DNA from: Morinoia aosen | Lineage: Eukaryota; Arthropoda; Malacostraca; Amphipoda; Talitridae | Length of the DNA stretch: 64,000 nucleotides | Direction of reading: 5' to 3' | Assembly: GCA_030386875.1 (NCBI GenBank) | Contig: CM059559.1 | Location: 68,958,392-69,022,391 of the forward strand | Shown: one piece after another, positions 26,755 to 54,615 of the stretch | How positions within the stretch are numbered: position 1 is the first letter of the stretch | How the letters are laid out: each line of letters opens with the position of its first letter | The notes under the pieces: generated by a model | Told to the model about the DNA's origin: nothing | Databases searched by the model: none | Seen by the model: only the letters and a program-made list of their open reading frames with translations | Program-made: the position numbers and the translations under genes

Positions 26755-26960
26755 TGTGCAGTCATCTATCTGGGTATTAGTGCTAAACAGAGGTGATATA
26801 AGCCGATCATGTCGAGGCATAGCTGCTCACTCCTGTTTTGCTTCCCTTGCTGATAACATCTAGCGGATCACTCCTGTCCTGCCGTCCATACTAATAACAT
26901 CTACCAATAAATCGTCCCAGCCTTCACTCCGAGTTTACTTCCACCTGCGTAGGACGCACA
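26755..26960 (+). repeat. Gypsy-A 5' LTR
   Basis: 206 bp, TGTGCAGTCATC...GGACGCACA, with TG/CA ends. A TATA-like GATATAAGCC lies about 40 bp in (26795-26804) and AATAAA at 26906-26911, so U3-R-U5 is very compact. The partner at 39748-39953 differs at two C/T positions. Confidence 0.96.
26795..26804 (+). promoter_or_regulatory. TATA-like promoter motif in the Gypsy-A LTR
   Basis: GATATAAGCC about 41 bp from the LTR start. Gypsy-B has CTATATAAGC at about the same distance from its LTR start (54561-54568 on the plus view), although the LTRs are otherwise little alike, which supports a promoter role. Confidence 0.55.
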
Positions 26961-26982: not shown

Positions 26983-28368
26983 ACTTAACCCACATTCGTG
27001 AACTCATAAGTGTTACAGTGGATTTCAAGTGTTCTTTATTAACATCCTTCGAACAGTATAAAAATCCCGATGTGTTCCGGCGAAAACAACCAGCTCTGGC
27101 AGCCTCAAGAAACGGTTATTGTGTTTGGAATCATCGTATCTAAAGAATTGTTGACGGAAGCTTACTGTAAATTTACAGTATATCTTAATTTAGACTCACC
27201 TTTGCGTACAAAAATTTTGGTCTACGAGTGTGAAGACGACGCCATCGAATTAGTATTTGAAGTCAAGATTGCAGCATTCCCAGCGTCAACCATTGAGTGA
27301 ATTCTACATCTACAATTCTACAAGAAGTGAATCTACATCTACAAGTGCTAAAAACAAATTAATTGTGTTGAGATAAATTACTACGAATAACAGTAGCAGT
27401 AATTTGCATCAGTACCAGTAGCAGTGCAGTGCACCAATAACTGAACGAGTGAAGTGACACATACTTTCATTTAGAATTAAAAATTCTTAAACGTGGTGCA
27501 CTATATCTTCGTGTAAAAAGAAGTATCATCTTGCTGTACCAGTCGACATCATTGCTGTACCTGCATTGACTGTTCCCCCACCCATCTTGCCTGCCACGAC
27601 GAAGTGAGCTGCTGTTGTCTTCTTGTCTCAGATAAGTCTTTAGGAAAAAGCATTTTCTGTAACTAGATGCAAGCGGTATCGTTCTCTGAGCAGAGCATTC
27701 TTTTTGTTGCAAATATTGCTGCGGACGTCTTGTGCCGTACCCACTTCCTGTGTAGCTTTTCAGTCAGTCAGTTTGAGTCTGTACTCGGTGGACGACAGAT
27801 CTGCGTCAGTCAAGATCGGATTAGCAGTTTACCCCATTTTTACCTTCAAATTACCATTGTAAGTTTCGAATTTTGCAGTAATTGAGTAATAGTGTTAGTG
27901 AAAGTGTCATGAACACTTTGATTTAAATTTTTGAAGCTTTATTTTGATATAAATTCACGTTTTTTTCGCTCTGGAGCAGCGATATTATTTTTTCTGAGCT
28001 ATCTCGTGAGCTGAAGCTGTCACGTTGCGCTGCGCGATCTTATTGTTGCTCAGGCAGAAGTTTTATTGTGGTGCTAAAATTTTAATTTTCAGGATTCGTG
28101 CCGCTAATCCTTGTTTTTCATTGAGAGTACTAGTGATAAAGATTATTATTGCTGATTGATTATTATTGCTGGTTTATTAACGTGCGTAATTAATTGGGTT
28201 CAGTGTGTATTAATTAATTTTTGTGTGTATTTCATTGCATTTCGGTGTGTATTATCGTTTACGGAGTACGATATTGATTTTTGAGTGCATTTTAAGTCAT
28301 TTGGTATTGAATTTCTGAATTTTAGTGGTATAGGGAAATTTTGGATGGTTGATTAGGACATAAAATTA
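26983..28368 (+). other. Gypsy-A untranslated leader (1.4 kb)
   Basis: Long AT-rich leader with many ATGs. It contains a three-codon in-frame minigene (ATGGTTGATTAG, 28345-28356) directly before the gag frame. The flanking TTTGGATG is also present at the equivalent place in Gypsy-B. Confidence 0.6.
27070..27300 (+). CDS. Small leader ORF (76 codons), unknown
   Basis: First sizeable ORF of the genomic RNA, starting about 110 nt after the LTR, with composition that looks protein-like (MCSGENNQLWQPQETVIVFG; YLNLDSPLRTKILVYECEDD). The Gypsy-B leader has a different 66-codon frame at 54127-54327 with no visible similarity, so conservation is not shown. It may be chance. Confidence 0.25.
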   Translation: MCSGENNQLWQPQETVIVFGIIVSKELLTEAYCKFTVYLNLDSPLRTKILVYECEDDAIELVFEVKIAAFPASTIE

Positions 28369-29823
28369 TTGTCTGATTATTTCGACAGTGATGAAGAGGT
28401 AGTTCGTACAGAGGCTACTGTAACTAGATCAGGACGTATTAGCACTCCTAGAGTAACAAGTATTTACCAAGTACCAACCATGACGACACCACAAACAGCT
28501 GTAGCAGGTCCTAGCGTTAATGCTAGTGTTAGTACTGCCCAACTTGCGCGTGATATTGCCGCTAACATGCAGGTACCCACTGGAGGAACAATTTTGACGA
28601 ATGCGGAGCTTCCGACGTTCCGAGGTAGACGTAGACTTAATGATTCTGAGTTTCTAGAAAATAAAAGCTTTAGTACCCATATACAAAACCTAAAGGCATA
28701 CATGAGTTTGTTGCCTGATGCCACTAGTGATGAACGTCGGAAGGAATTTCTGGTTCGCTCAGCTAACAAACAAGTAGGAGATTTCAACAGCGTGGTCACG
28801 AAACTAGTTAATGCTGACCTTAATTACTCATTCGATCAGGTGGTTAAGATCCTTGAGGATATTTACATTGCGCGGGGAGAAAAAAGTATCCATGCACTGG
28901 CTTGCGACCTGAACGAGTTGCAATTAGTTAAAAATCATGCCCTGGCGGCACAGATCGTCAATGCCTTTTCTAAAATTAGAAAGCTAACTGAGAGTATCCT
29001 TAATTCAAATGCTTTAGGTTGGCAGAGAACTGCATATTTCCAAGCCTGCGCAACGCAAGCAGAGTTAAAAAAATTCGTAGGCGATAGTATTTCGTACAGT
29101 CTCGCGTTGGCAATCTTAGGTCCACTCCTTGATGAGTCGTTCGCTAGAAAAATATTTGAAAGTCAATTTGTAACAGCAGAGGACCTGTTAGCGAAGTTAA
29201 TTTCAGCGGTGCGCAGTCAGTCCGAGTCTAAAAAGATTCTCGCGCAAAAGTACCAAGTCAGGCAAGAAAGTGAAGCTTATGTAGGTGAAGTTACCGGTGA
29301 ATTTGATGAGAGTTTTGATGAGACAGAACTAAGTCCGCAAAGTGAGGTTTTCTACGGCAGTTTAGGTGGTTATCGTAGAAATTTTCGGTCAGGCGCACGT
29401 AGAATTATGCCTAGGCCGTGGATCGCACGAAGTACTCGAACAAGATGTAGAGATTTTAACAGTTATGTAGGAGACAGAGGAATTGGGAGTTTGGAGTGCA
29501 ACGTGATGAAAACAGATGGTTCTGTTCAGTTTTCGGGAAATTCTGAAATTTCAGGAGGAAATTCAGGAACGAAAAAACCGCCAGGATTACCATATTGTAA
29601 TTCATGTTCGATGACAGGGCCCTTTGAATGCAGATCTCAAAGGGGTCAATTTCCGCGTGGGTGTTTCGCTTGCGGCAATACAACTCACGTTGTAAAAAAT
29701 TGTAGAGCGTCAGGTACGGAGATTAGGAATTACAGAGCGTATCTGCGCGGTAGAGGTAACTCAAACCGGGGTAGAAGTGAAGTCCATTGGGCAGAGAGTG
29801 AGTCAAGTAGTTTTTTAAGCTAG
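28369..29823 (+). CDS. gag: Gag polyprotein (no in-frame ATG at its natural start)
   Basis: Structural protein forming the particle and binding RNA. The 484-codon frame opens at TTG (LSDYFDSDEE). The residues before the first internal ATG (28480) are conserved in Gypsy-B, where the same codon is ACG, so translation must begin upstream of 28480 or by non-AUG initiation. The central part is helical capsid-like sequence (FLVRSANKQVGDFNSVVTKL; KSIHALACDLNEL), also conserved in Gypsy-B. A conserved YVGDR.IGS.ECN block precedes a CCHC zinc knuckle, CFACGNTTHVVKNC (29662-29703), in an R/G-rich tail. The stop at 29821 follows a slippery heptamer by 4 nt. Confidence 0.88.
   Translation: MSDYFDSDEEVVRTEATVTRSGRISTPRVTSIYQVPTMTTPQTAVAGPSVNASVSTAQLARDIAANMQVPTGGTILTNAELPTFRGRRRLNDSEFLENKSFSTHIQNLKAYMSLLPDATSDERRKEFLVRSANKQVGDFNSVVTKLVNADLNYSFDQVVKILEDIYIARGEKSIHALACDLNELQLVKNHALAAQIVNAFSKIRKLTESILNSNALGWQRTAYFQACATQAELKKFVGDSISYSLALAILGPLLDESFARKIFESQFVTAEDLLAKLISAVRSQSESKKILAQKYQVRQESEAYVGEVTGEFDESFDETELSPQSEVFYGSLGGYRRNFRSGARRIMPRPWIARSTRTRCRDFNSYVGDRGIGSLECNVMKTDGSVQFSGNSEISGGNSGTKKPPGLPYCNSCSMTGPFECRSQRGQFPRGCFACGNTTHVVKNCRASGTEIRNYRAYLRGRGNSNRGRSEVHWAESESSSFLS
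29811..29823 (+). promoter_or_regulatory. -1 ribosomal frameshift site T TTT TTA
   Basis: In the gag frame the sequence reads agT TTT TTA AGC TAG. A -1 slip on T TTT TTA enters the pol frame, which is open from 29811 (the preceding TAG at 29808 closes it upstream). It is the same heptamer type used by HIV-1 gag-pol. Gypsy-B has gaT TTT TTA GTG AAC TAG at the same place (50391-50406, minus). Confidence 0.87.
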
Positions 29824-30560
29824 ATGGAGGAAGAAAGGGAGAGTTAAAGCAGATTGAGCCCGAGGTAATTAGCGGTACCAAACTCGTTAAACTGGAGACC
29901 GTCGTAATCCCAGATACCACCGAAATAACCAAATCGTATGTTGACCCTGTGGTTAATTTTAAAAATAGATATAGTTTATTACAAGAAGAAGAGCTTGAAA
30001 ATGACCATTATCAAGGCAAAACGGTGGAATCATATTTTTCTGTGTCCGTTGTAAAGAATGTTGATAAAAATTCTGGATTAGTGTCATTCAAAGAGTGCAA
30101 CAAGCCGACAATCATTATTCAAAATAACGATCAGTATCTGAATGCCTTGCTTGACAGTGGATCGGAGAGGTGCCTTATCAGTTACAGACAGATTAAAAAT
30201 TTGAGTGATGAAGTCAAGCCGAGTAAATTAAAAGTCAAGGGAATAAGCGGAAAGAGCGACGTGACCGGTGAAGTAGAATTATCCATTAAAATCCCGGGCA
30301 CCAGTAAAGTAATTAAAACAAGTGCACTTATCGTCCGTGAAGCTAAATTTAACTATGATTTAATTCTAGGTCGTGACGTCTTAAAAGACGCAGTCATTAA
30401 CTTCAGAGAGAAGGAACTTCTTTGGAATAATGTTGCAATTCCTTTTCAAGATTTAAATGTGGAACCTTTGTTAAGCAGAGAATTTGTAATGCGAAGAATA
30501 GTGAATAGTGATTGTCTATTATCAGAGATTGCGGTCGCTAGAAAGACCAAGAGGCAATTA

Positions 30561-30715
30561 AAAAATGATGACTGCAGCAGGAAAAATGATGACTGCGGCA
30601 GAAACAATGCTGACTGCAGGAGAAAAAATGCTGACTGCGGGACAATGAGAGCTGCGGTAGCTCAGAGACAGACCATGAGAGCTGCGGTAGCTCAGGCACA
30701 GACAATGAGAACAAA
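30561..30715 (+). repeat. Two in-frame minisatellites within pol
   Basis: Four 21 bp units (30561-30644) encode variants of KNDDCSR. They are followed by two and a fraction 30 bp units (30642-30715) encoding TMRAAVAQRQ. Unit lengths are multiples of three, so pol stays open. Gypsy-B lacks both arrays at the same point. Confidence 0.9.
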
Positions 30716-32508
30716 ACAATTAATTGTTCATTGTAATCAGGCTGAAGTACCTGGTAATTCGCTTAACGTTGTTTATGGCTTCATTAGGAAACCAATTGTA
30801 GGAGAATATATGGTTCTCAAAAGATGTCTTGAGAATGGTGCTTTCGTAGCTGACTCAATTGTGCACGTAAATGAAGACGGTGTGGTACCGGTAATGGTTC
30901 TAAATGCTAATGAGGAGACGTTGTACTTCTCTGAGAACACGATGCTATGCAACGTGGAATTGCTAAAATCTGATGATATTGAGAGCGAAGTATATTTGAC
31001 GAGCGTGGAAACAGCGCTCAGAGATGCAGCTGACGTTGAAGTAAATTTTGTTGCGGGGTCAGATACGATGGAAGTTAAATCGACATGTGGTGGAAAGGAT
31101 GCCATTGTTGATAGGAAACTTTGTTCGGAAGCTGATACTCGTGGCAGAGGTGTAATTTCTGTTGATATTGTTGATAATAAGAAGTCAGAATCGAATGGAG
31201 AAGTGGGAGTAATTAATGCAGAAGTAAATGTAGGTTTAATGCAAGGAGGTTTGATAAGTGGAGAAAGTGGAGAAAAGGCGTTAAGACGTGACTTGACAGA
31301 CAAAGACGTTTCATGCAATGAGAAAGACGTGCAATTACCTTTAATTGAATTGTTGAATAAGTACCGCGATGTAGTAACACTCGAAGGAGAAAAAATAGGA
31401 GTTACCAATATTTTAAAGCATCAAATTCAGTTGAAGCCAGATGCTCCAGTATTAAATTTAGTTCCCTATCGCATACCCCACAAGTACCAAGAGGAGGTAA
31501 TGCGGATAACTAATGATATGCTAGATCAGGGTATTATTGAAGAGTCCAACTCTGCCTATAACTTTCCTGTGATTGTAGTTAAAAAAAAATCGGGAGATTT
31601 GCGTCCCGTAATCGATTTCAGAGCTTTAAATACGGTACTTATTAAACAATCATACCCCCTCCCACGTATAGACGACATTTTAGCTACTTTAGGAAATAAC
31701 GCGTGGTTCTCTAACATTGACCTTCGCAGTGCTTTCCATCAGATTGAGTTAGAAAAAGAAAGTAGAAAGTATACGGCATTTAGTGTCAATTACCGTAAGT
31801 ATCAGTTCTGTAGGGTACCGTTCGGACTCTCTACGAGCCCGGGAATATTTCAAAAACTCATGATATCAGCGCTTTCACCCATTTTGGGGAAAGTCGCGTT
31901 TGTATTTCTTGATGATATATTGGTATTTTCTAAAAATAAAATTCAACATTTAATGGATTTAGAAAGCGTTCTTAAAATGCTTAGATCCGGAAATTTATCC
32001 TTGAAGCTTGAGAAATGTAATTTCTTCAAGCAAGAAATAGAATATCTTTGCCATATCATAGCCGCAGATGGAATTAAATGTAAATATTCGCAAAAATTGC
32101 AAGATTGCCGAGCGCCAGTCAATGTTAAAGAATTACAACAGTTTTTAGGGTTGGCTAACTATTTTCGGAATTTCCTACCTAATTTTGCTGAAATAGCAAG
32201 TTCTTTGTATCATCTTTTGAGGAAAAATGTTACTTATACATGGACAGACGAGTGTCAAAGAAGTTTTGAGTATTTGAAATCTTTATTGACGTCAGACAGA
32301 GTTTTAAGACATCCAGACTATACTAAGGACTTCCATGTGTTCACGGATGCTTCCAATTCAGGAATAGGTGCTGTATTAACCCCCGAGAACCCACGATAAC
32401 GAATTTTTGGCCAATGTCGATAATACTTCATAATTTACTTACATTTAGTCCCAGTGTGGCGCATATAAAGTTAGAATCTGAAAATGTTATTTTTCATGGC
32501 AGTTACAG

Positions 32509-32532
32509 GCCGCCCACCTGAGTGGGCGCTGG
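32509..32532 (+). repeat. piggyBac internal inverted repeat, left copy
   Basis: 24 bp, begins GCCGCCCACCTGAGTGG. It is the exact reverse complement of the copy near 34870-34893, and itself contains the palindrome CCCACCTGAGTGGG. Confidence 0.85.
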
Positions 32533-32889
32533 GCATTAGAGGAGTCTTTCAGTCATTTGGATGCAGGTGCATACTTGTGCCACTCATGCAACCATTACTG
32601 CATTTCAATGTGTGTATATTATATCAATTACATTTTCCCTTATGTTAAATTAAACAAACCATTATTTTATACAAATTTAATAGAAAACCAGAAAAAAGAT
32701 ATAGCTGGTCTTGTGTATAATGAATCAATTACCCAATATCAAAATATTTCTAGAAATTGTGCGATAAAGAAAATGTAAAACATAGTTCCACTTATTACGG
32801 ATGAATGTTGAAAAGACCTGCATTTTTACATAGATCAACATTCTATTACTTTGGACGACATTCAAGTAGTGTGATACTGGAGCCAACAC

Positions 32890-34648
32890 TCAATATGGAG
32901 AGCGCACATCACACTTGGTACACTTGGGGCGAACATTCTTCTTACATACACCACATCGTCGCTGTGTTGGTCCCATTACCACATTGTGGTTCATACCATC
33001 ATATCTTCCTGTTGTGCTGATATGACGTGGGACATCGCTCTTAGTCAGGCTAGCTGAGGGAACTAGCAAGCTAGAAACAATTTATTGGGTAAATTCCAGT
33101 TGAGTCATTGGCCTGATTTTCCTAAAGTACACCCAACCATTTACAACTGTTGCATTGAGCAGGAACCGAAAGATTGGATAATACCATACGCGTTTGCGAA
33201 AAGCAACTCTATACTTTGCTCTGAACTGGTCAAACAAATCGACGCCACCCATACCGTTGTTGTAGTGCTGTATGATCTTTGGCTGGGGCACACTTACAAC
33301 TTTCTTGTGTTTGGCAGACCAACGATTACAGCTGCCCAGCGCCAGAGCACTGTCCATGTTGTTTGTCCCAACAATGACGTCACTGTTATCTTGCCAGTGA
33401 ACTACAGTAAGATTTTTCTCCTCCTCGACGAAGACTTCAGACTCACCTCTCTGCACCTTGGAATAATTCGTGAGAGGCATGCCACGAACTTTGTCTTTTC
33501 TGATTGTTCCGGTGAGGTATATTTTTGAAGTTTTGAACTTTTCCAGAAGTGGCAGCGTAGTGAAGTAGTTGTCAACAAAGCCATTGCTTTCTAATGGTAC
33601 AAATTTTAGAGCCATGTTCGACACTACAGTCTCGCCAACACCCATACCTTCTTCTTTGCCGGTGCCCTTCCCTTCATACAAAATGAATTTTATCAGAGCG
33701 CCTTCACGTGAACACAAGCACCAGAACTTATAGCCAAAACGGACCGGCTTCCCACGAATAAACTGTTTCAGACTATGGCGACCATAATAGGGTTCCATAG
33801 CCTCATCTATGGCCTAAATCTTGGGAAGAGGTTCAGCCATCTTAGCGAAAACTTAATTGAAATGGTTCACCAGAGGTCTCATTTTGAATAGACGGTCAGT
33901 AGTGTCAATGGCTGTATTGTCAACAAAGTGTAAGCTTGCCATAATTTGTTCATACCTGTTTCTAGACATGCCGCACTCAGCCACAGCCACGTTTTTTGTA
34001 TCTGATTTTGTTGACCAGAATAAGCGATGATTTGGCACTGTTACATAACCAGAGAGAATTAGAACGCCCAAAAAATGGTACATCTCTTTATTCTTCAGAA
34101 ACAGTTCTTTTCCAAATTTCTGTAGGTGATAGTTATTTGATTCCAATACAATCAATTCAATTATGTCTTTCCAAAAGTTTTTGAAAACATCTATGGGATC
34201 ACTTTTTTCGGTTTTCCATTCATTTACTACAAAGGGGAGATGATTGTCTTTGTGAACTGCTTCATCTGTCTTGCGGAATTGTTTTTTTACCCAGCTGAAT
34301 GAACGTTTCTCCATTTTTCTCTTCTTCGTGGCTTTTTGAGATGTTCTAGCTTTCTTTGTATCATAGCCTAGTAGACTGGATTCATCAGTTCCATTGATTC
34401 CTTCATCCATTTCATGTCGCTCTCCTGACTTAGTATTTACTGTGATATTGGCGGGCCTGGCAAGCATCCGGTTTCCCAAAAGATTTACATTTTCTTCCAC
34501 AAAAACATCGTCGTTAATTATTTCATCTACATCTGAGTCTCCTTCTTCCATTGGTGGCTCAAGAGCAATGTCGTAACTGACAGCATCATCTTCTTCGTCC
34601 GACAAAGTGTAAAGGTAGGATACAGCATCTTCTACATTCTTGAAGGGT
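32890..34648 (-). pseudogene. piggyBac transposase (DDD), four stops
   Basis: Cut-and-paste transposase. Reading 5' to 3' on the minus strand: an acceptor-like TTTTTCACCAG at about 34650; an acidic N terminus with DAVSYLYTLSDEEDD (the TTG at 34605 is an internal Leu, not the start); then LFWSTKSDTKNVAVAECGMS and MRPLVNHFN. In-frame stops follow at about 33853 and 33817. The catalytic core is AIDEAMEPYYGRH, SNGFVDNYFTTLPLLEKF and NGMGGVDLFDQFRAKYR, so the three aspartates are present. A third stop lies at 33082, then a Cys-rich tail, RRCGVCKKNVRPKCTKCDV, the cross-brace zinc finger of piggyBac proteins, ended early by a TGA (32890). The first exon was not located. The codons are otherwise well kept. 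Confidence 0.9.
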
Positions 34649-35271
34649 CTGGTGAAAAATTCGCAAAGTTAGAATTTTGATTATCATATATATCCAATAC
34701 GTGAGAGAAAAATGTGTCATTTGCGAGAATGATAATGTCTGATGTACAATTTTCTATACCTATACACAACTTAGAAGCTCCACAGACACATAAATTAAAA
34801 TTAGTTACCACAAACTAGAAACATGTGGCGGGCGAGAAAGCGTCAATATTCTTCACAGTGACTGCGTCCGGCCAGCGCCCACTCAGGTGGGCGGCCATGT
34901 TCATTCATCAATAAATTCTTCACTATCACTGCGATTGCACTGAAAATCACACATTCGTTCCACTAATATCTTCTTAATATACTTCTAAGTTATTTTTTTA
35001 ATACATAAAATACTTAGTGAGATTTTGCTATCAACATACCTATTGGGGGCCATGTTTGAGAATCAGCTGAAAGCAAATCCGTATCCACACCTCTCAACGA
35101 GTCGTTGCTAAACGAAGGCAACGTCTGAAGTTGTACAAGTAAAGAAGAGTTTTCTATCTTTCATTTGTAACAAAGAAAATTTATTTCGGTCAATAACTGA
35201 GGTAGATACAGAGTTTTAAAAATATGCAATTTTCTGCCCACCTCAGTGGGCGATGGGTTCTCGTGGGTTAA

Positions 35272-37054
35272 TGCAAGCGGATGATTCTAGCGACAAAATT
35301 TTGAGACCTGTTGCTTATTACAGTAAAAATTTAAATTCTAGTCAACGTAGATATTCCACTACGAAGAAAGAGTTCTTCGCTATTAATTGTGCTTTAAATA
35401 CTTTAAGTATCTAATAACGGGATATACGGTGCGTGTCTATACAGACCACCGTCCCTTGGCACCCTTGTTTAACAAGAAATTACCTGAGGACACCAACATG
35501 GCCCGCTGGTGCTTAAATGTTCACTCTTTCAGTCCTATTGTAAAATACCTCCCTGGGAGAGAGAACGTTGTGGCTGATTATCTAAGCCGTTTACCAGTTG
35601 ATAATGATAAATTAAATCTTAAAGAATTAAATGATTGTGAGGATTTGCAAGTCGCAAATGAATCGGAAGTATGCATTGCAGAGACACGTGCGCGCAAGCG
35701 ACAGACGCATGCACGCATACCGCCAGACGAGGTGGATGACCTGCCGGTTAGAGACAGCGACGATGCAGACGTACCCAAGCTGATTAGCTGCGTACCAACT
35801 GAAGATGAAATATCTTGGACGATTAAAGAATTTATTGACGAGCAGAATAACGACGCATTTTGTATAGATATTAAGAATGCTTTATTGCATGACAGTATTT
35901 CGACAATAGCTGATTTACATAAATTTTTAATTTTGAATGATATTCTTTATAGACGTAGAGAGATTGATAATAGACCTAGTACAATTTTGACAGCGGTCGT
36001 TCCTAATTCTCTAATGAGTAAAGCTGTTTTAGCAATACATAGTATGTACCATACCGAATACAAACATACTTTATTCAAGTTTAAGTTAAAATATTGGAAT
36101 GGATTAGAGAAAACTTTTGTGCGAAAATTTGTTACCGATTGCGAAGTTTGCAAAATTATTAAGGCAAGACCTTCAGTACCAATTAAAATTTTGACAGCAC
36201 CGATAGCTAAAGAACCGTACGAAGTTGTTTCAATTGATCTACTTGAACCTCTTAAAGTAACTGATAACGGAAACAAGTATATTCTTGTAGTTATTGACTT
36301 GTTTTCACGATTTTGTCGTTTGTACGCAATATCAGATCGACGTACAGAAACAGTTATTGCTTGCTTAAGTAGTTGTTTCTCGCTTTTAGGTTTTCCAAAG
36401 ACGCTCATATCAGATAATGCTTTGGAGTTTAGGTCAGTGGCATTAAAACAGTTTGCAAACTTACACGCCATTGCGAAAAAGGAGGTTTTGGCTTATAGCC
36501 CACACTCTAATGCGATCGTCGAGCGCAATAACAGAAAAATAACTGATCTTTTGAAATTATATGTAAATACACTTGTTCAAACCGAGTGGGATCAATTATT
36601 GGAAGTAGTAGAAAATGCCTTGAATAATTCCGTAAATTCTACGATAGGCGAAACGCCAAGCTACATTATGTTCCAACGTGACACATGTGCCTACTACCAA
36701 GCTGATAAAATGGATTCATTAATTTACAGTTTTGATGAAGAACTAGATTTAGTAAATCTTAGAGCTAGAGAAGCCGTTAGAACAGTAGAAAACGTAAGAA
36801 ATTTGATCATTAACAATACAACTGAGAGAAATCTCTATAGAAATCTCAGGCGGCGAAACAAGGATATTAAAGTAGGTGATCGTGTTTTATTAAAGAATCA
36901 CGGGAGGACCCATAAACTTGAATTAACATGGATAGGTCCAGCTATTGTCCAAAAGGTTGAGCGTAATTACGCTGATATCAAGGTTGGATCAAAAATTATT
37001 CGAAGTAATCTTAACCATTTGTTACCACTCAAAAAGGTAAAAACTGTGAGTTAA
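35272..37054 (+). pseudogene. pol: Pol, second part: RNase H and integrase, one frameshift
   Basis: After the TTAA, RNase H continues (KILRPVAYYSKNLNSSQ). Near 35390 a single-base shift moves the frame; from there YFKYLITGYTVRVYTDHRPL and VKYLPGRENVVADYLSRLP are open to the end. The integrase has a zinc-binding region (H..H then CEVCKI), then the DDE core: VSIDLLEPLK with D, LISDNALEF with D, and SPHSNAIVERNNRKITD with E. A C-terminal GPY/F-like module (LTWIGPAIVQKVERNYADI) typical of Ty3/gypsy integrases ends the frame at 37054. Gypsy-B reads through the 35390 position in one frame (PKAFKYLI), so the shift is copy-specific. Confidence 0.92.
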
Positions 37055-37786
37055 AGAGATAATTCATCAGGCTATATGACGTGTTAACCAGTCGACGAGT
37101 AACGAATTAACTATTTACTGTGTTACTGCGTTTTACCGTAGTTTTATTTTTTTTATCGTTGGTTTATCCGTTTATCAATAATGTTAAGGAGTATAATCAT
37201 AATTTTAGGAGTTCTTTGCTATTTGCAATATGTTTTGCGTTCATATTAATCTCATTAATAACTGTGTTGTTTTTTGGTTAAGTAATAATTACATTTTTGT
37301 TCCCAAGTAAATTGAGGTAAAGTTAGGTTATTTACCCCAGACGCTATTTACACTGAGGAATTTGTATTGTCTCGTTTTGTTGTCGCTAAGACGTTTCATT
37401 TAATTTTTTCTCGAATTCACTCAGACATTCGTATTGCTTAATTAACAAATTTAATCGTGAACGTTTGAGCAAGCAGCGAACTGATTCGCTGAGCTTGTAA
37501 ATTTGGCTGAGAGATGCGCAACTGCGATCTCGCCGAGCTATTTTTATCTGATCCGGTATGTAGCTGTTCTAGAATGTCGAGATCTGGAATGTTCGAATAT
37601 CAAGCGTAGATTTAAATTAAATTCATGAGACAGGTGGCTGGTCACCTGACACTTTTTTTTTGTTGTTACGATCAGCGTTTATATTTTGTATGCGAGAGTT
37701 ATCGTGGTTCAATGACTTTACTTTTGTCATGCAACCGAGACTGATACCAAATTGTATGTGTATTTATTTCATTTAGAATAACGGCC
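37055..37786 (+). other. Intergenic region between pol and ORF3
   Basis: No ORF. The AT-rich, pyrimidine-rich run into TGTTTGTATCTGTTCATTTCAG (to 37818) looks like a splice acceptor, suggesting ORF3 is expressed from a spliced RNA. Confidence 0.5.
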
Positions 37787-37796
37787 ATGCTAATCT

Positions 37797-37818
37797 TGTT
37801 TGTATCTGTTCATTTCAG
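37797..37818 (+). promoter_or_regulatory. Putative splice acceptor for a subgenomic ORF3 RNA
   Basis: A pyrimidine-rich tract ends in CAG immediately before GATGGG. Gypsy-B has TTTCTGTTCCTTTTGCAG/GAT at the corresponding position (minus, about 45335-45352). Gypsy env genes are made from spliced RNA, so this position is meaningful. Confidence 0.65.
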
Positions 37819-37819
37819 G

Positions 37820-38107
37820 ATGGGAAACGCGCAAAGCAACATCGACGTAGAAACCCTTGTTGCGGCGTTATCGACGCACTCGACGACTATCAACGAAGAG
37901 TGGATCAACGAAAATTCTAGAATGGAGCTGTTGCCTGATAAGGTGACTGATGTCATCATAATGTTCCTAATACTAATAACCATGGGGATGGGAACAATAC
38001 TCTACCACGTTAAAAAAGAGGTAAAGGTGCTTGCGCGGATGCAGCGAGAGGATTTTTCCAGGATGTCCAGGGGAAGGCCCCCACGAATCCTCCAGCAGGA
38101 GCAGTAA
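37820..38107 (+). CDS. ORF3: small N-myristoylation-type single-pass membrane protein
   Basis: 95 residues in the env position. The start at 37820 is chosen because the ATG lies one base after the acceptor and begins the segment conserved with Gypsy-B (MGNAQSNIDVETLV against MCNAVSTVDVDTLV). MGNAQS fits the N-myristoylation pattern. About 46 polar residues lead to ELLPDKVTDV, a hydrophobic segment (IIMFLILITMGMGTIL), then a basic stretch (HVKKEVKVLARMQR) and an R-rich tail. Gypsy-B keeps the LLPD.V.DI, membrane segment and KK positions despite being old. It is far too short for a normal gypsy envelope. Function unknown: a membrane anchor, a viroporin-like protein or a small fusion protein are possibilities only. 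Confidence 0.72.
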   Translation: MGNAQSNIDVETLVAALSTHSTTINEEWINENSRMELLPDKVTDVIIMFLILITMGMGTILYHVKKEVKVLARMQREDFSRMSRGRPPRILQQEQ

Positions 38108-39733
38108 TCCTCAACGTCGCGCGCGATGTGGTGATAATAAATTTACCTCACGTAGGACGTCCCCGAGATGCAGGACGTCAGAACCGTCCCCGTAACCCTG
38201 TGGGTGCGCGACGCGTCTAAAGTGTTTAAATTCTAATTTTAGGTTGAAAATAAAATTCATTGAAACGAGAAAAGTTGAAAAATTTAGGAAAAGTTTTTAT
38301 TCGAAGTGTTAGATTTTTAGTTTTGAAATCTGGCGCGCTGTGTTGAAACATAATGCGGAAACGCAAGAAAAAAACGTTCAGTGTTATTCTAAATTTAATG
38401 TGTTTTTTTGCTTTAATATTTTTCTTTTGTATTGACGTGTTATTTTGATGTTTAGGTATCAAGATTTTATTGAGCAAATTGAGTATTATTATTATTGTTA
38501 AGAGTTTTTTTTTAATAATGTGTTTCGAATTCGTAGTTATTATATTTTTTTTTCTGTGATGGTTTTAATCCGAGGTTCTTGCGAAAATTCTTGCGTATGT
38601 TTGGAAATGTGTTTTACATGTTTTGATTTATAGAAATCAAAATTTTTTATAGTAACTTAATTTTCCGATATTTAATGCAAATGGTTAGTTGAATTGACGT
38701 TTTTTTGGATAAGATGGCGTTTTACTCCATATTGAATCCTTTCGACATCGTGCAGTGAATTAACGAAGCAGACATCGTGCAGTGAATTACTTGATGCACG
38801 GTAAGTGTGTTGCTATGCTTTTTTGCGTGTTTTACTCGCTTTGCTTATTTTGCTTTTTATATGTTAAGTTTCTATGACAATATGCAATAATTTTCTGTGT
38901 TGCGATCATGCTAAACCTTGGTTTATGTTTAATACTTGTTGTGGTTTGATTGCGGTAATAAACTAAGTTTTAAAAAAGGTGTTTGAAAAAAAGGGGTTAC
39001 ATTTTTTTTTGAATGCGGTGTTCTACATTTATTGATGTTTCGGTCCATTAATTTGGTTTTCAATGATTCTAAACATGTGTTTAAATTTATAGTGTTTTTG
39101 CGTTTAAATTTACCATGTGGATAACCTAACCTGATTGGCAGGGGGTAAGTTAGTAAAAGCATTTTTCTTTTAGCACGTGGTTTTACTATGCTTAGTTTAG
39201 AACTTTGGTTCTAGCTTAGTTTTGTGGTTAATTAGTCAAGTGTTAACGTGTTAGTTTTCTAGTTGCGTTTACCTAACCGTTTTTTTTTTGGTAATGTAAC
39301 AGTTATCTTGCGTTTTTGAGTTAAGGTTATTTAACCGTAGTGTATCGAGCGTTTTATTTTTAAAGCAAGTATGCGCAATATTGTTCGCGGAGCCATACTT
39401 TGTTTTGCTTGTTCTTTTCTGTATTATAATAACGTTTGGCTGGTGCGATTAAACATTTGATTAATAATTTTTTTTTGCTATTATGAATGTTGTAAGAGTA
39501 AACGTAATTTGATTTTTGAGATTTACGAAGAACGATTCGTAAAGATGCCTTCATATCATATGGTTCTTTAAAGCTTGATATTTGTTTTATTTTGCAGTAA
39601 ATTAATTGATATTTTATTAAGCTTTGAGGAAAACTTGTGAATTAATTGTTTTGAGTATGTTTAACTGGGGCAATTAGTTCAATTAATTTTGCATTTAATT
39701 GAGTTTCATTTTGAAGTGTAGCTTTAACTCGCG
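38108..39733 (+). other. Gypsy-A long 3' non-coding region
   Basis: About 1.6 kb of AT-rich sequence without ORFs, between ORF3 and the PPT. A repeated phrase, GACATCGTGCAGTGAATTA, occurs at about 38747 and 38770. Gypsy-B has a non-coding stretch of nearly the same length in the same place. Confidence 0.8.
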
Positions 39734-39747
39734 TTGGGGGGGAGTTA
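39734..39747 (+). promoter_or_regulatory. Polypurine tract
   Basis: TTGGGGGGGAGTTA directly precedes the 3' LTR, the plus-strand priming site of LTR elements. Confidence 0.8.
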
Positions 39748-39953
39748 TGTGCAGTCATCTATCTGGGTATTAGTGCTAAACAGAGGTGATATAAGCCGAT
39801 CATGTCGAGGCATAGCTGCTCACTCCTGTTTTGCTTCCCTTGCTGATAACATCTAGCGGATCACTCTTGTCCTGCCGTCCATACTAATAACATCTACCAA
39901 TAAATCGTCCCAGCCTTCACTTCGAGTTTACTTCCACCTGCGTAGGACGCACA
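39748..39953 (+). repeat. Gypsy-A 3' LTR
   Basis: 206 bp. Identical to the 5' LTR except two C/T differences (CACTCTTGTCC and CACTTCGAG). Followed by the CTAT duplication (39954-39957). Confidence 0.96.
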
Positions 39954-39957
39954 CTAT

Positions 39958-41600
39958 AGGCCACAAATGATTCTAAAGGCCACAAATAATTCCACTTACA
40001 AACGAAGAAGATATTGTAGATGAATATCGAGGCAAAATGCCAGATGTCTAAATTCCTATAGGATAAACTTTTCGACACTTATTATCACAGGGATAGCGGA
40101 CAGCATGATACTCATGCTGTCACCCTCAAGGAAAGGACACTGCACTGAAACAAAATTAAACTTTGGTAAAATTTACGTGACTAAAATACTAGATTAGAAA
40201 TATATACGCATTAGGGCGTTTGGCTTAAGCGGAAATCCTAAGAAAATGAAATACAAACCTGAAAGTTCGCCTTGGTATTTCAGAGCAATGGAAGTTACGA
40301 GAAATGATTCCGCTACTAGTTTTTAACTGGCATGAGCTAGGACTTAGAACAGTTTAAAGTTCTGTGACATCGTAGGGCAAGGCAAGAGAAACTCTCACGA
40401 GCATGATAAATGGAACTATTAAAAGGAGTCACTGAACTGAAACTTTTACTCGTGTACTTATTTTAAACCCCAGTTCTTCACATAGCATTTTGAACGAAGA
40501 TCTGTGTTCCCAAAGATATGTCAAATGTTACGAATTATACTGAATGAGCAGTACGAGTAGTGAACTACGGATAAGTTAGTGTTATGCTACGTAAAATGGT
40601 ACGAAAAATAACTCGCTTAGTGTTCAATTAGTAAATTGATTTTTGATTCACAATCCTAACAGTCCGCACAGTTATTAATTTACAGATAACATAAACGCAA
40701 TCGGCACAATTGCCGTTATTGAGTGTAATATCAGAGCAAGCACAATTATTTTTTCGAAATAAAACGTTTCTAATTTCTAAATGAAACACACACTGCAGCA
40801 TGAGCTAGTAGAAATAATTTGATAGTGTGATAAAGAATCAGTTAATGAAGAAAAATATTATTACAACGAGCCTCTGGACAGAATACATACACACCAAATT
40901 TACCTCAACCAATAGTATCATATCCAGAAATGAGCGTTGAAATGGAAAATTAGAAGCACTGAATTACACAGCTTCAAGAATATCGTTAGCCATTGAACAC
41001 GAATAAATGTTTGTTTGAATTAAAATTCTCCATCACATGCGAATAATTTTAGTAACTCTAACAAGCGTTTTTTGCAAAGCAAAGAAAATTGTTATAGCTG
41101 AAAATGAGAAATTCTGGTGGAATATAAATTTAGAACTAAAACCGAAGATGACGCAATGGAAAATGGGAGGAGCTTAGAGTACTTGAACCACCAATAGCAG
41201 AGCAGCTTTCAAAAAGTTTTAGGGAGTGCTTCACTGGTGTCTAGTCGCGTAAAAATGACGTTGAATGCAACTCGCTTAGAACCGATGAAATCGCCCAGAC
41301 TAGAGTAGCCTACTAATGCATCCATCAATGACTTTCGCTGTGACACTATCGTACTCGACTTCAGTCCACTAGTCTAGATCATATTTTTCGAGGGAAAAAA
41401 TGCAATTTGACCACTAAACCTTTCCACCCTTCAATTCTTACTTGCATGCTCAGTGCAATTAAGTCCTTCGTTTATCTTCAGGCTAATGAAAGGGCAATAA
41501 TAAGCAAAATTAACTTATTTAGAAATACATCCATTAAAACCACATCTATCCCAATCTGTACTCACAGCGCTATATGGCTGGGGGTATTTCTGCTGTTTTA
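39958..41600. other. No recognisable gene
   Basis: AT-rich sequence between Gypsy-A and the next repeat block. The 67-codon frame at 41407-41610 has no domain. A short internal repeat TAGGCCACAAAT/AAAGGCCACAAAT lies at 39957-39985. Confidence 0.4.
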
Positions 41601-41619
41601 TCCGACATGATTACATTTT

Positions 41620-42835
41620 TCTGTTAATAGGGATATTTTCCGGAACTGCCTTATGGGGAACATCCCGAGCCAAATTGGGCCCCGGCGGCTCCCCCCCCCT
41701 GAAATTTTTTTTTTGTTGAAAAAGGATCCTTAGGGGATGGGTTATTGTGCCATGAAATGTTATGGCCCTACGGACACTAGAACCCCCCCCCCCCAGGGGG
41801 GTGAAAAGGGGACCGAAAATGGTGATTTTTGAGCCCAATTCTTTTTGGTTGAATTAGGATCCTTAGGGGATGGGTGTATGTGCCATGAAATTTTATGGAA
41901 TATGAGTTAGTTAGAAATGTTTCAAGGATTCTAAAACTGGTTTTGGTTTTGTTCTACCATCGAAACTCGATGACAAGTCTCGTTTTGAAATATTCAAGAA
42001 AAATATACCGAAATACTCTTTTTTCGTCAAAAAAATAAAAACTAAGGCATAAATCGAAAAAGTGACACGAGTAAAAAAGGTTTCCTTTCACAAAATACAT
42101 ATACTGGCCAATTTTCAAACAAATCAGACGGAAAAAATTGATAAAGTCTCATGGTGATTACTGAAATAAAATGTATTATTATTATTTACTCATAAGTACG
42201 ATATTTCTTAGATCTTTACTTGAAATTCACAAGAAAAATGCTGCTCATTGTTCGTACATCGAAATAGATCATGGAAACTGCATTCATGTACAAAAAATTT
42301 TCGTTATATTCAAATTCAATAGACATAGTTCGTTTTTGGGATCGTTTTGGGAAATTTTCCTTTTTTACCATTCAAAACGCTACTTCTCCTCGAGTTTTGA
42401 TGCTAGAAAAAATCCAAAGACCGTTTTAGAATCCTTGGAACATTTCTAACAAACTAAAATTCGGCTTTTTTTCAAATTCGAATTCTTTGAAGAAATATAT
42501 AGCTCTAAACCCAAAAAATTGTTGCTGATTTTTGAAATTTCAAAAAATGTTGAAAAAATAGAAAAACTTCGAATTAGAAAAAAAGCCGAATTTTAGTTTG
42601 TTAGAAATGTTCCAATGGTTCTAAAACTGTCTTTGTTTTTGTTCTGGCATCAAAACTGAAGGAGGAGTAGCAATCTGAAATATCAATAAAAATATACCAA
42701 AAAACACATTTTTCGTCAAAAAAAAGGCCTGAATCGAAAAAATGACACGAGTAAAAAAGATTTACTTTCACAAAAGACATATAGTGGCAAATTTTCAAAC
42801 GAATTGGACGAAAAAAGGCAAGATCTCCGGATATT
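41620..42835. repeat. Complex direct and inverted repeat block (foldback-like)
   Basis: Three related units. Units at about 41905-42150 and 42595-42830 are direct copies (TAGAAATGTT.CAA.G.TTCTAAAACTG, TTTTTCGTCAAAAAAA, GACACGAGTAAAAAAG). The unit at about 42350-42475 is inverted. A 46 bp inverted pair with one mismatch (42437-42482 against 42568-42613, containing AAACTAAAATTCGGC) makes a hairpin with an ~85 bp loop. Further left, GGATCCTTAGGGGATGGGT is duplicated (41725, 41861), with two poly-C runs. No duplicated target site found. Confidence 0.75.
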
Positions 42836-42949
42836 CCTCTTAAAGTAGCTCGAGCAATTCCAGGTCATAAGAAAATAACGAAAAATTTTGTTTTTAATTA
42901 TAGATAAATTTCAACAATGTGTGTAGAGCGTTAAATCTTTGAGTGCGCA

Positions 42950-43258
42950 ATGGACTCCAAAATAGATAAATTTCTTTCTACCTTTCGTGTGTTATCTCAT
43001 CAGTTGGGCTTTCGGAGGAATTGCTCAAATTTCTGACGACCTTAACATGTTCTGCGATTCAATTTATTCTCGTTTAAGCAAAAAGGAATAGGTTATTTCG
43101 GTGTTTCTTGACTTCTCGATGGCTTTTGATACCATCAATCATAATATCCTTGTGAAAAAACTTGAAGCCCTAGGGTCCCGCTCTAATATTCTACACTGGT
43201 TACAGTCGGAAAATTCGTTGTGGGGCTCCACCGGGCTTTATTCTGGGGACTCTAGTTT
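42950..43258 (+). pseudogene. LINE reverse transcriptase fragment, left half (split by Gypsy-B)
   Basis: Reads QLGFRRNCSNF, then SVFLDFSMAFDTINHNILVK (first RT catalytic motif, D of FLDF) and the G.P.G.ILG loop at 43215-43250. Gypsy-B enters immediately after GACTCTAGTTT. The second half, with the FADD motif, continues at 54620. One shift upstream of 43080 shows prior decay. Jockey/CR1-type by wording. Confidence 0.83.
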
Positions 43259-43437
43259 TATGCGGACCGATGAAACGCTGGAGGTCTTCTTGGGGGTACA
43301 CTTTATTGGTCCGTAGCAGGTGTGGTACAGGCGAGGGACGTGAACGATTGATCGATTGAGCATAGAGAAAACACACTCATCGTTTATATAGCCTATGAGG
43401 CGCGCAGAGTAGGGACGAGAGTAAGCGCGCATGCACA
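43259..43437 (-). repeat. Gypsy-B 3' LTR
   Basis: Plus-strand view runs TATGCGGACCGATG...GCGCATGCACA. Pairs with 54437-54615. The altered first bases (TATG for TGTG) are decay. Confidence 0.92.
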
Positions 43438-43453
43438 TTCCTCCCCCTCCCAA
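43438..43453 (-). promoter_or_regulatory. Gypsy-B polypurine tract
   Basis: The minus strand reads TTGGGAGGGGGAGGAA directly before the 3' LTR TGTGCATGC. Confidence 0.85.
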
Positions 43454-45029
43454 ATATTAGGGACTCAAATCACAATTTTCGAAAGAAAAAATAATATTCG
43501 GGCGAGAGAAAAAAAAATACTAACTCCAAGCAAATTACCAAAATGACCTCCTCTCCGCCTTTATTGCGTTTTAAACTCAAACAAATCAATTTTTATTGAA
43601 CCTAGTAAGATTACCTTGTCCAAGACTATTTATAACATTCGACAACACAAGCAAGAAGAACGAGGGCGGCTCAAGCGAAAAAAAATGCCCTGTCATTCAA
43701 AATGTAAAAGTACTCGGTACCAGCTCTTCGAACTAGACAAACTAAGTTCGTACTAGACAAACAACGCAAGTAGACACATGGTTTAAAAACATTTGTTATT
43801 ACTCGCCAAGAAATTTATTACCAATCTTGTCGTCCAAATTGCACTGGAAGCCACAGAGTAATATTAGTAACCGCTAAAAAAGTAAAACGCCAATTCGGAA
43901 CAACTACAGAAATATAAACTCAAAAATACACCATAATAATAACAATACGCAAAACTTCTCAACACATCAGCGACCTGTATTCGCAATAATTTTTCGTTTC
44001 TTTTACGTTGAATTTTACGGGTAGAAGACGAAAAAACAATAAATTATTCAATAACATGGTAAAAATTGCATTCAAAAATTTAGCGCAAAATATAGCGAAC
44101 CAAATTCAAATTCGCAAAATATAGCGAACCGTGTAAAATGTTATCACCACAATTACACGCAGTGGATGGCGGAAAGCAAAACACATTTCAAGTGTTTAAC
44201 TCTTCCGGTTACACCAACTTACAACCATGGTTACACAAAAAGCGCAAAGAAAAACGATTAATAGGTATTACTAAAAAGTAACAAACAAAACGACATGGAA
44301 TAAAGCACCAGCTGCTACCACCGGTCAGCACTAGCGCCAAGCTCACCATACAACCACAATGGCAGCACAACGAGAAAGGTAGGTTGAAAAAACGCCAAAT
44401 ATTCTTTTCAGTAAACACCAATGGTAAACATCAATTCAGTAAAACCAATTAAAAAAACAATTTCTAATAATTTCTCAAAAATTCCGCAAAGGGACACTCA
44501 CGAGTCGCAAAAATTCTTGAATTACAAACAAATGAAACACCAGTCAATCACTTGCTTAAAATCGAATTCGCAGCATAGTGAACCTCTTTACACACACAAA
44601 TTTTCCGGTCTGCACATCGTTGCTTGACGTTTGTGAAGTTGCGCATAAACACCATATTATAGATGAAAAGCATAAGATTATAGTAGCGGTTAAGTAGACT
44701 TACTGCTAAGCAAAACACAATTTCCTTAGTAGAGCAATCACGGAATTTCATTAATAATCTAAATTATCATCTCGCGGACAACGAAAAGTGAGCGATATTT
44801 AATATTTATTCCCAATGAAACTAACGGCCATCAGAGCAAAAGATCCTGTAAATTTTTAACAAACGATAGAAAAATTACACTCCCGTGCTTAAGCCACAGG
44901 AACAACTACCCAAAGGCATCTGCTGCACACTTGTTGGGGAGCATGCGCGTTTGGAACGTCAGGTCCTCCTTGAACCAAGCCGTTGCACATGTACTATCAC
45001 ATCACCGCCGACTGTTGTGTTCGTTACAC
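43454..45029 (-). other. Gypsy-B long 3' non-coding region
   Basis: About 1.58 kb between the PPT and ORF3 without a convincing frame, matching in length and position the 1.63 kb of Gypsy-A. Short repeats such as GCAAAATATAGCGAACC (about 44087 and 44115) occur. Confidence 0.75.
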
Positions 45030-45318
45030 CTACACCTCCCCGGTGTTGTTGTATTTTGGCGGCCTCAGCGTACCCCGACGGAGCTGAAAATCCTCGGCCC
45101 GGTTCCGTTCGGCGAGAACTTCTGCACTCTTCTTGACGTAATACATCAGGTCAGCCAGCCCCATCAGTGCGATGATCAACAGCATCACGAGAATATCAGA
45201 CACTTGGTCGGGTAGCAAATCCAGTCTTGAATTTGCCTGCAGCCAGTCCTGATTAATTTCGCTCTTGTGCTTCTGACACAAGCGTGTCCACATCCACGGT
45301 CGACACAGCATTGCACAT
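45030..45318 (-). pseudogene. Gypsy-B ORF3 (one frameshift)
   Basis: Homologue of Gypsy-A ORF3. The ATG at 45318-45316 begins MCNAVSTVDVDTLV, aligned to MGNAQSNIDVETLV, so the myristoylated Gly is a Cys here. A shift near 45260 then leads to the conserved NQDWLQANSRLDLLPDQV, a hydrophobic segment (SDILVMLLIIALMGLADLM) and YYVKKSAEVLAERNRAEDF. Just upstream is CCTTTTGCAG/GAT, the same acceptor as in Gypsy-A. Conservation in position, start, membrane segment and flanking charges between elements with unrelated LTRs argues that ORF3 is a genuine gene of the lineage. Confidence 0.75.
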
Positions 45319-53401: not shown

Positions 53402-54423
53402 ATGGTTTTTCCTTTAGCAGTGATATTTACATCCAAATTTACACATCTTATCACCATAAATATACATTAGGTAAGAAAACCTAAATTTTACATACTTCTA
53501 ATAACCGCAAGAGCACAAAAATTTTATACGCTCACCATCAGTAAAAATGACAACAATAATGCAACACTAACTTAAAGAAGCCGTCCCAGCCTGCAAACAT
53601 TTGGTAATCCCATAAACTGTTAAACAGCGACCTACACTGCAACAAAGCTCAGACAAACGTCTCTCAGTGAAACAAAGCTGTGCGGCCTCGGCCGATGTAA
53701 AAAACAAGCTGCAAAAAACAACTCTCTCGCTAAGCTGCAACACTGGTGCGCAAAAAAAATGAGCTGCAAAAAATAGACTGCGAAAAAGAACTACTCACTG
53801 CCTCTGCCCGCACTGCCACTGCGACTGCAACTCGAGTAAAGCACAAATGAAATTTACTCCTTTTAATCTTTACTTAACTCAAAACGTCGAACTGGAGGAT
53901 GTGAAAGCGCTCGACGCCACTGTAAGACCGCCAATGATGGCGCAGAAGTAAATTCCGGGCTTACGTTGTTGTTATCACTTATGTAGTTTAGGTAACACTT
54001 TTATAGTTATAGTTTGTAGTTATCACTTTTAGTTCGTTGAATTAGCACAGGCCACCCGTCGTGGAGACTGGTCCTCCAAAGCTTATTTCCAACACGATTT
54101 CTAGGTCGTCACCGGCGTCAAAAATGTTAACTCATGTGCGGAATGGAGAGCTCGTTTCTATCCATGCTGACAATTTCGCCTAGGATTCCAACAACGCCGA
54201 GAATGGAATCTTGAATCCTAGGACAATAACCGATGGGAGTATCTGCCAGATACGGTTGTCGTTGCTGCTGCCGGTCATCGATGAGACTTCGTAACTTCTT
54301 CAGAATTCTCCTATTATTGCACTGCACATCTTCTGAATTGGAACACCTTCAAACTTCTTTACTTGTTGATAACTTCTCGGTCTTAAAACGTATTCACACA
54401 GCATCGTGAATTCATATTATACT
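53402..54423 (-). other. Gypsy-B untranslated leader
   Basis: About 1.0 kb between PBS and gag, AT-rich, with short repeats such as AGTTATCACTTTTAG. A 66-codon frame (54327-54127) is not similar to the Gypsy-A leader ORF. Confidence 0.6.
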
Positions 54424-54436
54424 GGCCACCACTTGA

Positions 54437-54615
54437 TGTGCGGGCCAATGAAACGCACGATGTATTTTTAGGGGTACACTGTATTGGCCCGAAGCAGGTG
54501 TGGTACAGGCGAGGTACGTGAACGATTGATCGATTGAGCATAGAGAAAACATGCTCATCGCTTATATAGCCTCTGAGGCGCGCAGGGTAGGGACGAGAGT
54601 AAGCCCGCATGCACA
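54437..54615 (-). repeat. Gypsy-B 5' LTR
   Basis: The minus strand starts TGTGCATGCGGGC and ends CCGCACA, with CTATATAAGC about 45 bp in. The PBS TGGTGGCCAGTAT follows after 5 nt, from 54431. Confidence 0.93.

Follow-up and report, generated by a model that had tools for sequence, protein, structure and literature searches.

We analyzed a 64,000-nucleotide stretch of the genome of the talitrid amphipod Morinoia aosen (the window), and its sequence identifies ORF3, a short reading frame located behind pol, as the evident third gene of a large group of gypsy elements that lack env. That ORF3 is a real gene can be regarded as practically certain, and the pattern of its variation among genomic copies points to strong purifying selection. 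The evidence comes from two diverged elements of the window, Gypsy-A and Gypsy-B, and from their relatives elsewhere in the host genome.

Structure of Gypsy-A and Gypsy-B

Gypsy-A is located on the plus strand between two 206 bp LTRs (TG...CA) at positions 26755–26960 (5' LTR) and 39748–39953 (3' LTR). The LTRs differ at two of 206 positions, and a 4-bp target duplication, CTAT, is found directly before the first of them and directly after the second; therefore, Gypsy-A is a young insertion. Its gag frame (28369–29823, plus strand) contains a CCHC zinc knuckle near the end, recognized by eye, and did not match any Pfam family. The pol gene is represented by two plus-strand parts, one encoding the protease, the reverse transcriptase and the start of RNase H (29949–32399; RVP, RVT_1 and RT_RNaseH_2) and the other the end of RNase H and the integrase (35387–37054; RT_RNaseH and rve above the cut-off, Integrase_H2C2 below it). 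Between 32399 and 35387 it is split by the insertion of a piggyBac-like DNA transposon (32399–35240, ends approximate, strand unassigned), in which DDE_Tnp_1_7 was detected on the minus strand at 33853–34605. Since the gag frame of the window copy starts without an ATG and pol is split as well, this copy is not intact. The six nearest relatives found for its pol have an identity of 36–52%. It should be mentioned that the piggyBac-like transposase is itself spread over two frames. Another pair of adjoining ORFs, at 24116–25801, is possibly part of a DNA transposon; the second of them has a below-cut-off similarity to DUF7869.

Gypsy-A is an env-less LTR element with the short ORF3 in sense orientation. 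ORF3 (37820–38107, plus strand) starts with MGNAQS, 765 nt past the pol stop at 37054, and is 1.6 kb away from the 3' LTR; as proposed in the initial annotation, it is open over 95 codons. Besides ORF3, the interval between pol and the 3' LTR contains no ATG-started sense ORF of at least 45 codons.

Gypsy-B, on the minus strand, is an older and broken element. Its LTRs (5' LTR at 54439–54615; 3' LTR, about 177 bp, at 43261–43437) are 90% identical to each other, and its gag and pol pieces have 65–73% identity with those of Gypsy-A in a DNA alignment. The initial annotation considered the LTRs of the two elements unrelated, and indeed only a 16-nt match is common to both. It also described an ORF of about 95 codons in Gypsy-B, which we did not find: the corresponding 289 nt (45030–45318, minus strand) are a frameshifted remnant with a stop 21 codons from the ATG and the remainder in the next frame. 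The second codon of this remnant encodes Cys, so that it lacks the Gly2 required for myristoylation. Nevertheless, the proposed alignment of the two ORF3s is right in substance, the readable part of the Gypsy-B frame being 41% identical to that of Gypsy-A, and the acceptor context noted before both is present, as TTCATTTCAG|G after TGCTAAT in Gypsy-A and as TGCTAATCGGTTCTGTTTCTGTTCCTTTTGCAG|G on the minus strand in Gypsy-B. Thus, the earlier view of a real ORF3 in the same arrangement in both elements stands, with an open frame in Gypsy-A only. The frameshift in Gypsy-B, a leader ORF, a splice donor site and the crustacean host were added by the present work.

The Gypsy-A/Gypsy-B ORF3 pair (window positions 37820–45318) has a second occurrence on its contig at a distance of about 25 Mb (C4:43903901–43911330), where each ORF3 is 100% identical to its counterpart and the spacing is 7196 versus 7213 nt. 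This is either a segmental duplication or an assembly duplicate.

Copies of ORF3 in the host genome and selection acting on them

To find other copies we searched the host assembly (1.99 Gb, 29 contigs). The ORF3 of Gypsy-A served as the first query. Scoring was confined to the best 150 of 2922 first-look candidates; each of them matched, at 72–100% identity, and 148 were free of stops. The readable part of the Gypsy-B ORF3 was used in the same way, and the best 150 of 2950 candidates had an identity of 49–100%, with 129 stop-free by our own count. No place common to the two lists was noticed by eye. In total, 65 places from the A-type list and 20 from the B-type list were fetched.

The position of ORF3 proved to be constant in the fetched A-type loci: in 62 of 65 it is preceded by a pol gene in sense orientation, the matched part of which ends about 700–775 nt before the ORF3 ATG. 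The frame is whole from ATG to stop in 63 of these 65 loci. Among the B-type pieces an in-frame ATG was found in 18 of 20 (an ATG followed by GG being preferred where present), and 16 of the 18 frames start with MG, the other two with MT or MV; one frame (L083) is cut short by a stop and one (L084) by the end of the piece.

After exclusion of the two broken frames (L054 and L055), the 63 whole frames yielded 56 distinct coding sequences. In every dS class their dN/dS is 0.04–0.15; the classes comprise 936 of 1540 pairs, the other 604 lying outside the dS limits as identical, without synonymous change or saturated. A ratio of 0.064 was obtained when 26 non-overlapping pairs were summed. Of 99 columns, 49, 26 and 88 are variable at the first, second and third codon positions, respectively, and only synonymous changes occur in codons 1–7 (MGNAQSN). 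For the 46 loci with both ORF3 and the pol C-terminus, dN/dS of 0.06–0.08 was obtained for ORF3 versus 0.07–0.19 for pol (581 of 1035 pairs, 454 being outside the dS limits), i.e., ORF3 is in the same range as the end of pol or below it.

The initial annotation held that ORF3 is a third gene in the env position, conserved over diverged families, and named dN/dS across copies among the checks. Values this far below 1, the 148 stop-free copies and the almost constant presence of pol upstream agree with both statements.

One copy (L098) contains a 739-codon open frame that at first sight fuses pol with ORF3. We rejected this fusion as an internal deletion that joined the integrase to a point upstream of the acceptor; the acceptor is still present between the deletion joint and ORF3.

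Splice signals

The ORF3 of Gypsy-A is preceded by a predicted 3' splice site (37788–37819, plus strand) composed of TGCTAAT, a pyrimidine tract and CAG|G. The initial annotation had placed ORF3 behind a splice acceptor, and the A-type copies agree with this: of 64 loci (L055 was left out of this count), 63 have a pyrimidine-rich tract followed by YAG|G in the 40 nt preceding the ATG, versus 49 of 3200 random positions drawn from the same regions. The TGCTAAT motif, which is branch-point-like and would serve well as a branch point, is located within 80 nt before the ATG in 61 of 65 loci versus 11 of 3250 random 80-mers. In 15 A-type copies the conservation of the acceptor stretch is 0.85–0.92 versus 0.74–0.89 in the 700-nt spacer; since much of the spacer is conserved alike, the value for the acceptor may reflect kinship of these copies.

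The B-type pieces are less uniform. The strict TGCTAAT...YAGG arrangement was revealed in nine of 20, including L085, whose AG is altered, and several others have tgcagg about 35 nt before the ATG; in two pieces (L095 and L102) no pyrimidine-rich acceptor adjoins the ATG. Gypsy-B itself has an acceptor, and GTGAGT is located at 53798 on its minus strand.

A predicted splice donor, GTAAGT, was found in the leader of Gypsy-A at 27859–27864 on the plus strand (cut at 27858|27859) from the aligned copies. The alignment included Gypsy-A and 14 of 17 fetched leader pieces (L066, L067 and L080 were dropped because of no or split match), and the donor is GTAAGT in 13 of these 15 copies, GTAAGA in one and GTACGT in one. 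A weight-matrix scan of the leaders revealed no shared donor site, as the last exon nucleotide is not a G; it was the alignment that showed the conserved GTAAGT. Thus, the acceptor located after pol could be used together with the conserved donor of the 5' leader, and the predicted intron of Gypsy-A is 27859–37818. From the TGCTAAT/pyrimidine tract/YAG acceptor and the conserved GTAAGT of the leader, we therefore consider it very probable that ORF3 is expressed by splicing.

A search of the host genome for a spliced retrocopy, with the predicted junction of one subfamily, gave no exact match. The one place with two mismatches coincides in part with an ORF3 locus of our lists, and by its sequence it appears to be an unspliced copy in which the acceptor is altered.

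A conserved leader ORF upstream of gag

The leader of Gypsy-A contains an ORF of 76 codons (27070–27300, plus strand) that precedes both gag and the splice donor. Of 15 copies, 13 have this ORF open, and with the two others (L072 and L074) dropped its dN/dS is 0.106 in frame (43 of 78 pairs, 35 being outside the dS limits). For the other two frames, where a slightly laxer limit was applied, the values are 1.02 (75 pairs) and 2.38 (74 pairs). A remnant with two in-frame stops is present in Gypsy-B (54060–54269, minus strand); in tblastn against the window it has 31–32% identity, with E values of 1e-8 and 7e-11. These data point to a second conserved small gene in both element lineages. No match to it was found in Pfam or PDB, and a single-sequence model is strand-rich with a low confidence of 59. 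Because the leader ORF lies on the same leader, gag and ORF3 would be reached by leaky scanning or reinitiation.

Two small frames in the slot behind pol

Since the ORF3 lists had been selected by ORF3 itself, elements were also sampled by the end of pol. From the best 150 of 4109 places we took 20, namely rows 2 to 13 and eight picked by hand; the latter were fixed before their flanks were seen, and a 531-bp flank piece was read for each. None of the 20 is in the ORF3-A list, so this sample leans against ORF3-A-like copies.

A recognizable ORF3 was found in 11 of the 20 elements, always open and with an MG start, seven of the 11 being nearly alike; the initial annotation had proposed to check whether most family members lack the ORF, and in this sample the majority carry it. 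The remaining nine places (L105, L106, L107, L110, L112, L113, L116, L119 and L122) contain, behind the same acceptor of TGCTAA and a pyrimidine tract, sequence of another small frame, which does not start with MG. One hydrophobic segment followed by basic residues is encoded in eight of the nine, L122 having lost the segment by deletion. By our own reading, the frame is whole and unshifted from the ATG in four (L105, L112, L113 and L119), and the membrane part of L112 weakly matches ORF3 (E 8e-4). For this second type of frame, pN/pS is 0.20 and 0.29 in two close comparisons, versus 1.19–2.75 in the other frames; in two distant comparisons it is 0.74 and 0.76, and frame +1 is lower (0.42 and 0.46), so that a coding nature is supported by the close comparisons only. 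We regard it as a candidate second cassette.

Exchange between the two frames is suggested by three of these places (L105–L107), in which the pol end is 98% identical to that of Gypsy-A over 84 residues, yet the other small frame is present. In addition, eight of 1035 pairs are close in pol (synonymous difference <0.15) and far apart in ORF3 (>0.45), and two of 1035 show the reverse. Judging by these comparisons, cassette exchange does occur; it is not the rule, because ORF3 and pol divergence are otherwise correlated (r 0.81). The slot behind pol would thus behave as an exchangeable cassette.

Architecture of the ORF3 protein and search for relatives

All 41 distinct A-type proteins have the same main features. 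They start with MGxxxS/T, an N-myristoylation motif, and contain a single hydrophobic segment with a peak at residues 42–60 or 44–62 in a Kyte-Doolittle scan, followed directly by Tyr at position 61, 62 or 64; the net charge is -3 to -5 before the segment and +3 to +5 after it. About 41–44 residues precede the segment. In the protein of Gypsy-A the membrane segment comprises about residues 42–61 and is followed by Tyr62, KK and a basic tail. Its 11-residue windows with a moment above 0.5 are all within residues 59–81, with none before the segment. An AlphaFold model based on a two-sequence alignment contains helices at 10–32 and 40–84 (mean pLDDT 68.5, and 88 over residues 41–60). In an alignment of 16 diverse ORF3s of 95–109 aa, hand-chosen among those with an MG start, V10, L13, L17, D40, D44, M55 and R86 are invariant.

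No relative of ORF3 was revealed beyond the host genome in proteins, viral contigs, PDB or Pfam. Among 5.8 billion proteins there was no candidate sharing three words with the Gypsy-A ORF3; nothing was confirmed in viral contigs scanned with this ORF3, the 16 ORF3s and pol, or in bacterial and archaeal genomes scanned with pol only. The sole PDB profile match (8tno, E 0.39) is at chance level. Pfam gave no envelope match for the 16 ORF3s; Chordopox_A13L (E 0.00045) and INTS7_N (E 0.0061) each matched one of the 16 only and were treated as chance resemblances of short sequences.

Comparison with known systems

The closest published design is found in insects. Voichek et al. (2025, PMC11952523) reported that MDG1 elements, which lack env, pass from somatic cells into the oocyte, and the sORF2 of 412, Stalker2 and mdg1 is described there as a small single-pass, FAST-like protein found with capsids at invading protrusions. 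The same report lists 105 sORF2/FAST-like proteins from 29 organisms (Diptera, Lepidoptera and Coleoptera) and a small gene after pol in seven of 22 lepidopteran consensus sequences. According to its authors, no splicing of MDG1 transcripts was observed, sORF2 did not produce fusion in standard cell assays, and a genetic test is hampered by the multi-copy, single-transcript gene layout (PMC11952523, 2025 preprint). The Drosophila result is also mentioned in a 2026 paper on pistolvirus FAST proteins (PMC12945298), and FAST families are without mutual similarity (PMC11952523; PMC12945298).

ORF3 and sORF2 have in common the MGxxxS/T start, a single membrane segment with Tyr directly after it and a juxtamembrane basic stretch, and both are carried by env-less gypsy-type elements with a second small ORF upstream of gag. 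They are similar in size (95–109 aa in 16 ORF3 copies, 63–107 aa in sORF2; PMC11952523), and the location of ORF3 after pol is that of the seven lepidopteran cases. By its sequence features ORF3 fits the description of sORF2 except for a longer ectodomain, of about 41–44 residues versus about 30 in sORF2. The sORF2 ectodomain also has an amphipathic motif; in the corresponding part of the Gypsy-A protein a helix is modelled at 10–32, and no 11-residue window has a moment above 0.5. Other differences are the host, a malacostracan crustacean versus the three insect orders reported; the donor and acceptor signals of the ORF3 elements versus the unspliced MDG1 transcripts; the occurrence of ORF3 as a recognizable sequence family at hundreds of places in one genome, unlike the sORF2 set; and the sharing of its slot by two unlike frames. 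Because the above searches revealed no sequence relative of ORF3 outside the host genome, its tie to sORF2 is one of design and not of shown descent. The leader ORF resembles the sORF1 of MDG1 as a small conserved frame upstream of gag; it has 76 codons versus about 110, and its low-confidence model is strand-rich while sORF1 is predicted as helix-turn-helix.

The reovirus FAST proteins (p10, p13, p14 and p15) are, like ORF3, small and single-pass, some of them myristoylated, with a basic patch adjacent to the membrane. The difference is that the carrier here is a retroelement, and the likeness is architectural; none of the PDB or Pfam matches of ORF3 was a FAST protein, and no viral contig matched. 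Errantivirus env is expressed by splicing. ORF3 shares with gypsy/errantivirus env the position after pol and the probable expression by splicing, but env has several hundred residues whereas ORF3 has 95 aa and no envelope domain recognized by Pfam.

The FAST comparison has already appeared in print with regard to insect elements (PMC11952523) and so is not as new as the initial annotation supposed. New here are the crustacean host, the splice signals, the cassette exchange and the leader ORF.

Possible function of ORF3

It can be hypothesized that ORF3 is translated from a spliced subgenomic mRNA, like retroviral env. The protein would carry an N-myristoyl group on Gly2 and span the membrane a single time; its N-terminal part of about 40 residues, acidic and helix-forming, would be exposed outside, and the basic amphipathic tail would face the cell interior. 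In the expressing cell it would gather at the plasma membrane and help to join this membrane to that of a neighbour, for example a somatic cell to the oocyte, so that capsids could pass into the neighbour cell without an envelope. By analogy with MDG1 sORF2 and reovirus FAST proteins, we think that ORF3 probably serves such cell-to-cell passage.

The small size, single segment, basic tail and myristoylation motif would equally fit a protein whose action is limited to the producing cell, either a viroporin or a myristoylated Gag anchor involved in assembly or release without any joining of cells, and neither selection nor the splice signals can tell the two functions apart. Still, a slot behind pol occupied by two unlike small membrane frames resembles env and not an assembly factor, and sORF2, the closest published design, is found at invading protrusions (PMC11952523); activity confined to the producing cell is thus rather unlikely. 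If ORF3 were a regulatory accessory controlling, e.g., export or the choice between spliced and unspliced RNA, it would supply the help that retroelements with splice sites require, as exemplified by CERV of the nematode element Cer1 (PMC10309623). The conserved leader ORF would be an equally good candidate for this role, and the membrane segment together with the N-terminal glycine in 41 of 41 A-type proteins indicates a membrane and not a nuclear site, which makes a regulatory role of ORF3 quite improbable.

There is little to recommend the idea that an envelope gene was once present and that ORF3 is what is left of its membrane anchor, retained solely by descent. The env position and the env-type acceptor upstream would be explained in this way, but ORF3 has its own conserved start and is under selection as an independent gene, at the dN/dS given above, and none of the 16 members has an envelope match in Pfam; we consider this origin very improbable. 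That the frame arose by chance within a 3' untranslated region has next to no probability and was rejected, as 148 of 150 copies are stop-free, dN/dS is far below 1 and ORF3 is open in 11 of 20 elements sampled by pol.

Returning to cell-to-cell passage, we tentatively suggest, with somewhat more doubt than confidence, that the crustacean env-less gypsy elements represent a second, spliced branch of FAST-armed retroelements, in which a fusogen-like cassette in the env slot is swapped between families and the leader ORF replaces sORF1. If so, direct passage of capsids from cell to cell would be general in gypsy elements of Pancrustacea and not confined to the MDG1 group of flies and related insect elements. 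The one report that we found to tie small membrane proteins of retroelements to such passage is PMC11952523, whose main text makes no mention of crustaceans; beyond it, no literature on crustacean cases or on spliced small membrane proteins behind pol was found. ORF3 provides a recognizable gene family in another arthropod class with its own predicted spliced mRNA, and, once splicing is confirmed, junction-specific RNAi could silence the fusogen candidate with the gag-pol RNA untouched. With dissimilar proteins replacing one another in a single slot, as env genes do among retroviruses, the origin of envelope-free infectivity would also become accessible to comparison.

Observations on the assembly

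Many of the listed copies of ORF3 and of pol are located on contig C26 (24 Mb, the smallest chromosome-sized contig seen), which may be a repeat-rich or sex-linked chromosome. On contig C27, at 55–72 Mb, several cytochrome-oxidase genes are open in the standard code, and this stretch looks like bacterial sequence joined to the assembly. Contig C28 contains two mitochondrial COI copies 18.4 kb apart. A mitochondrial COI fetched from the assembly has 98% identity with that of Platorchestia sp., a talitrid amphipod, and no more than 92% with any other among the best 120 proteins listed of 7999 scored, which identifies the host as a beach- or land-hopper. In one fetched piece (L104) the mitochondrial genes, named by eye, are in the order ND2-ND3-COI, which differs from the usual arthropod order.
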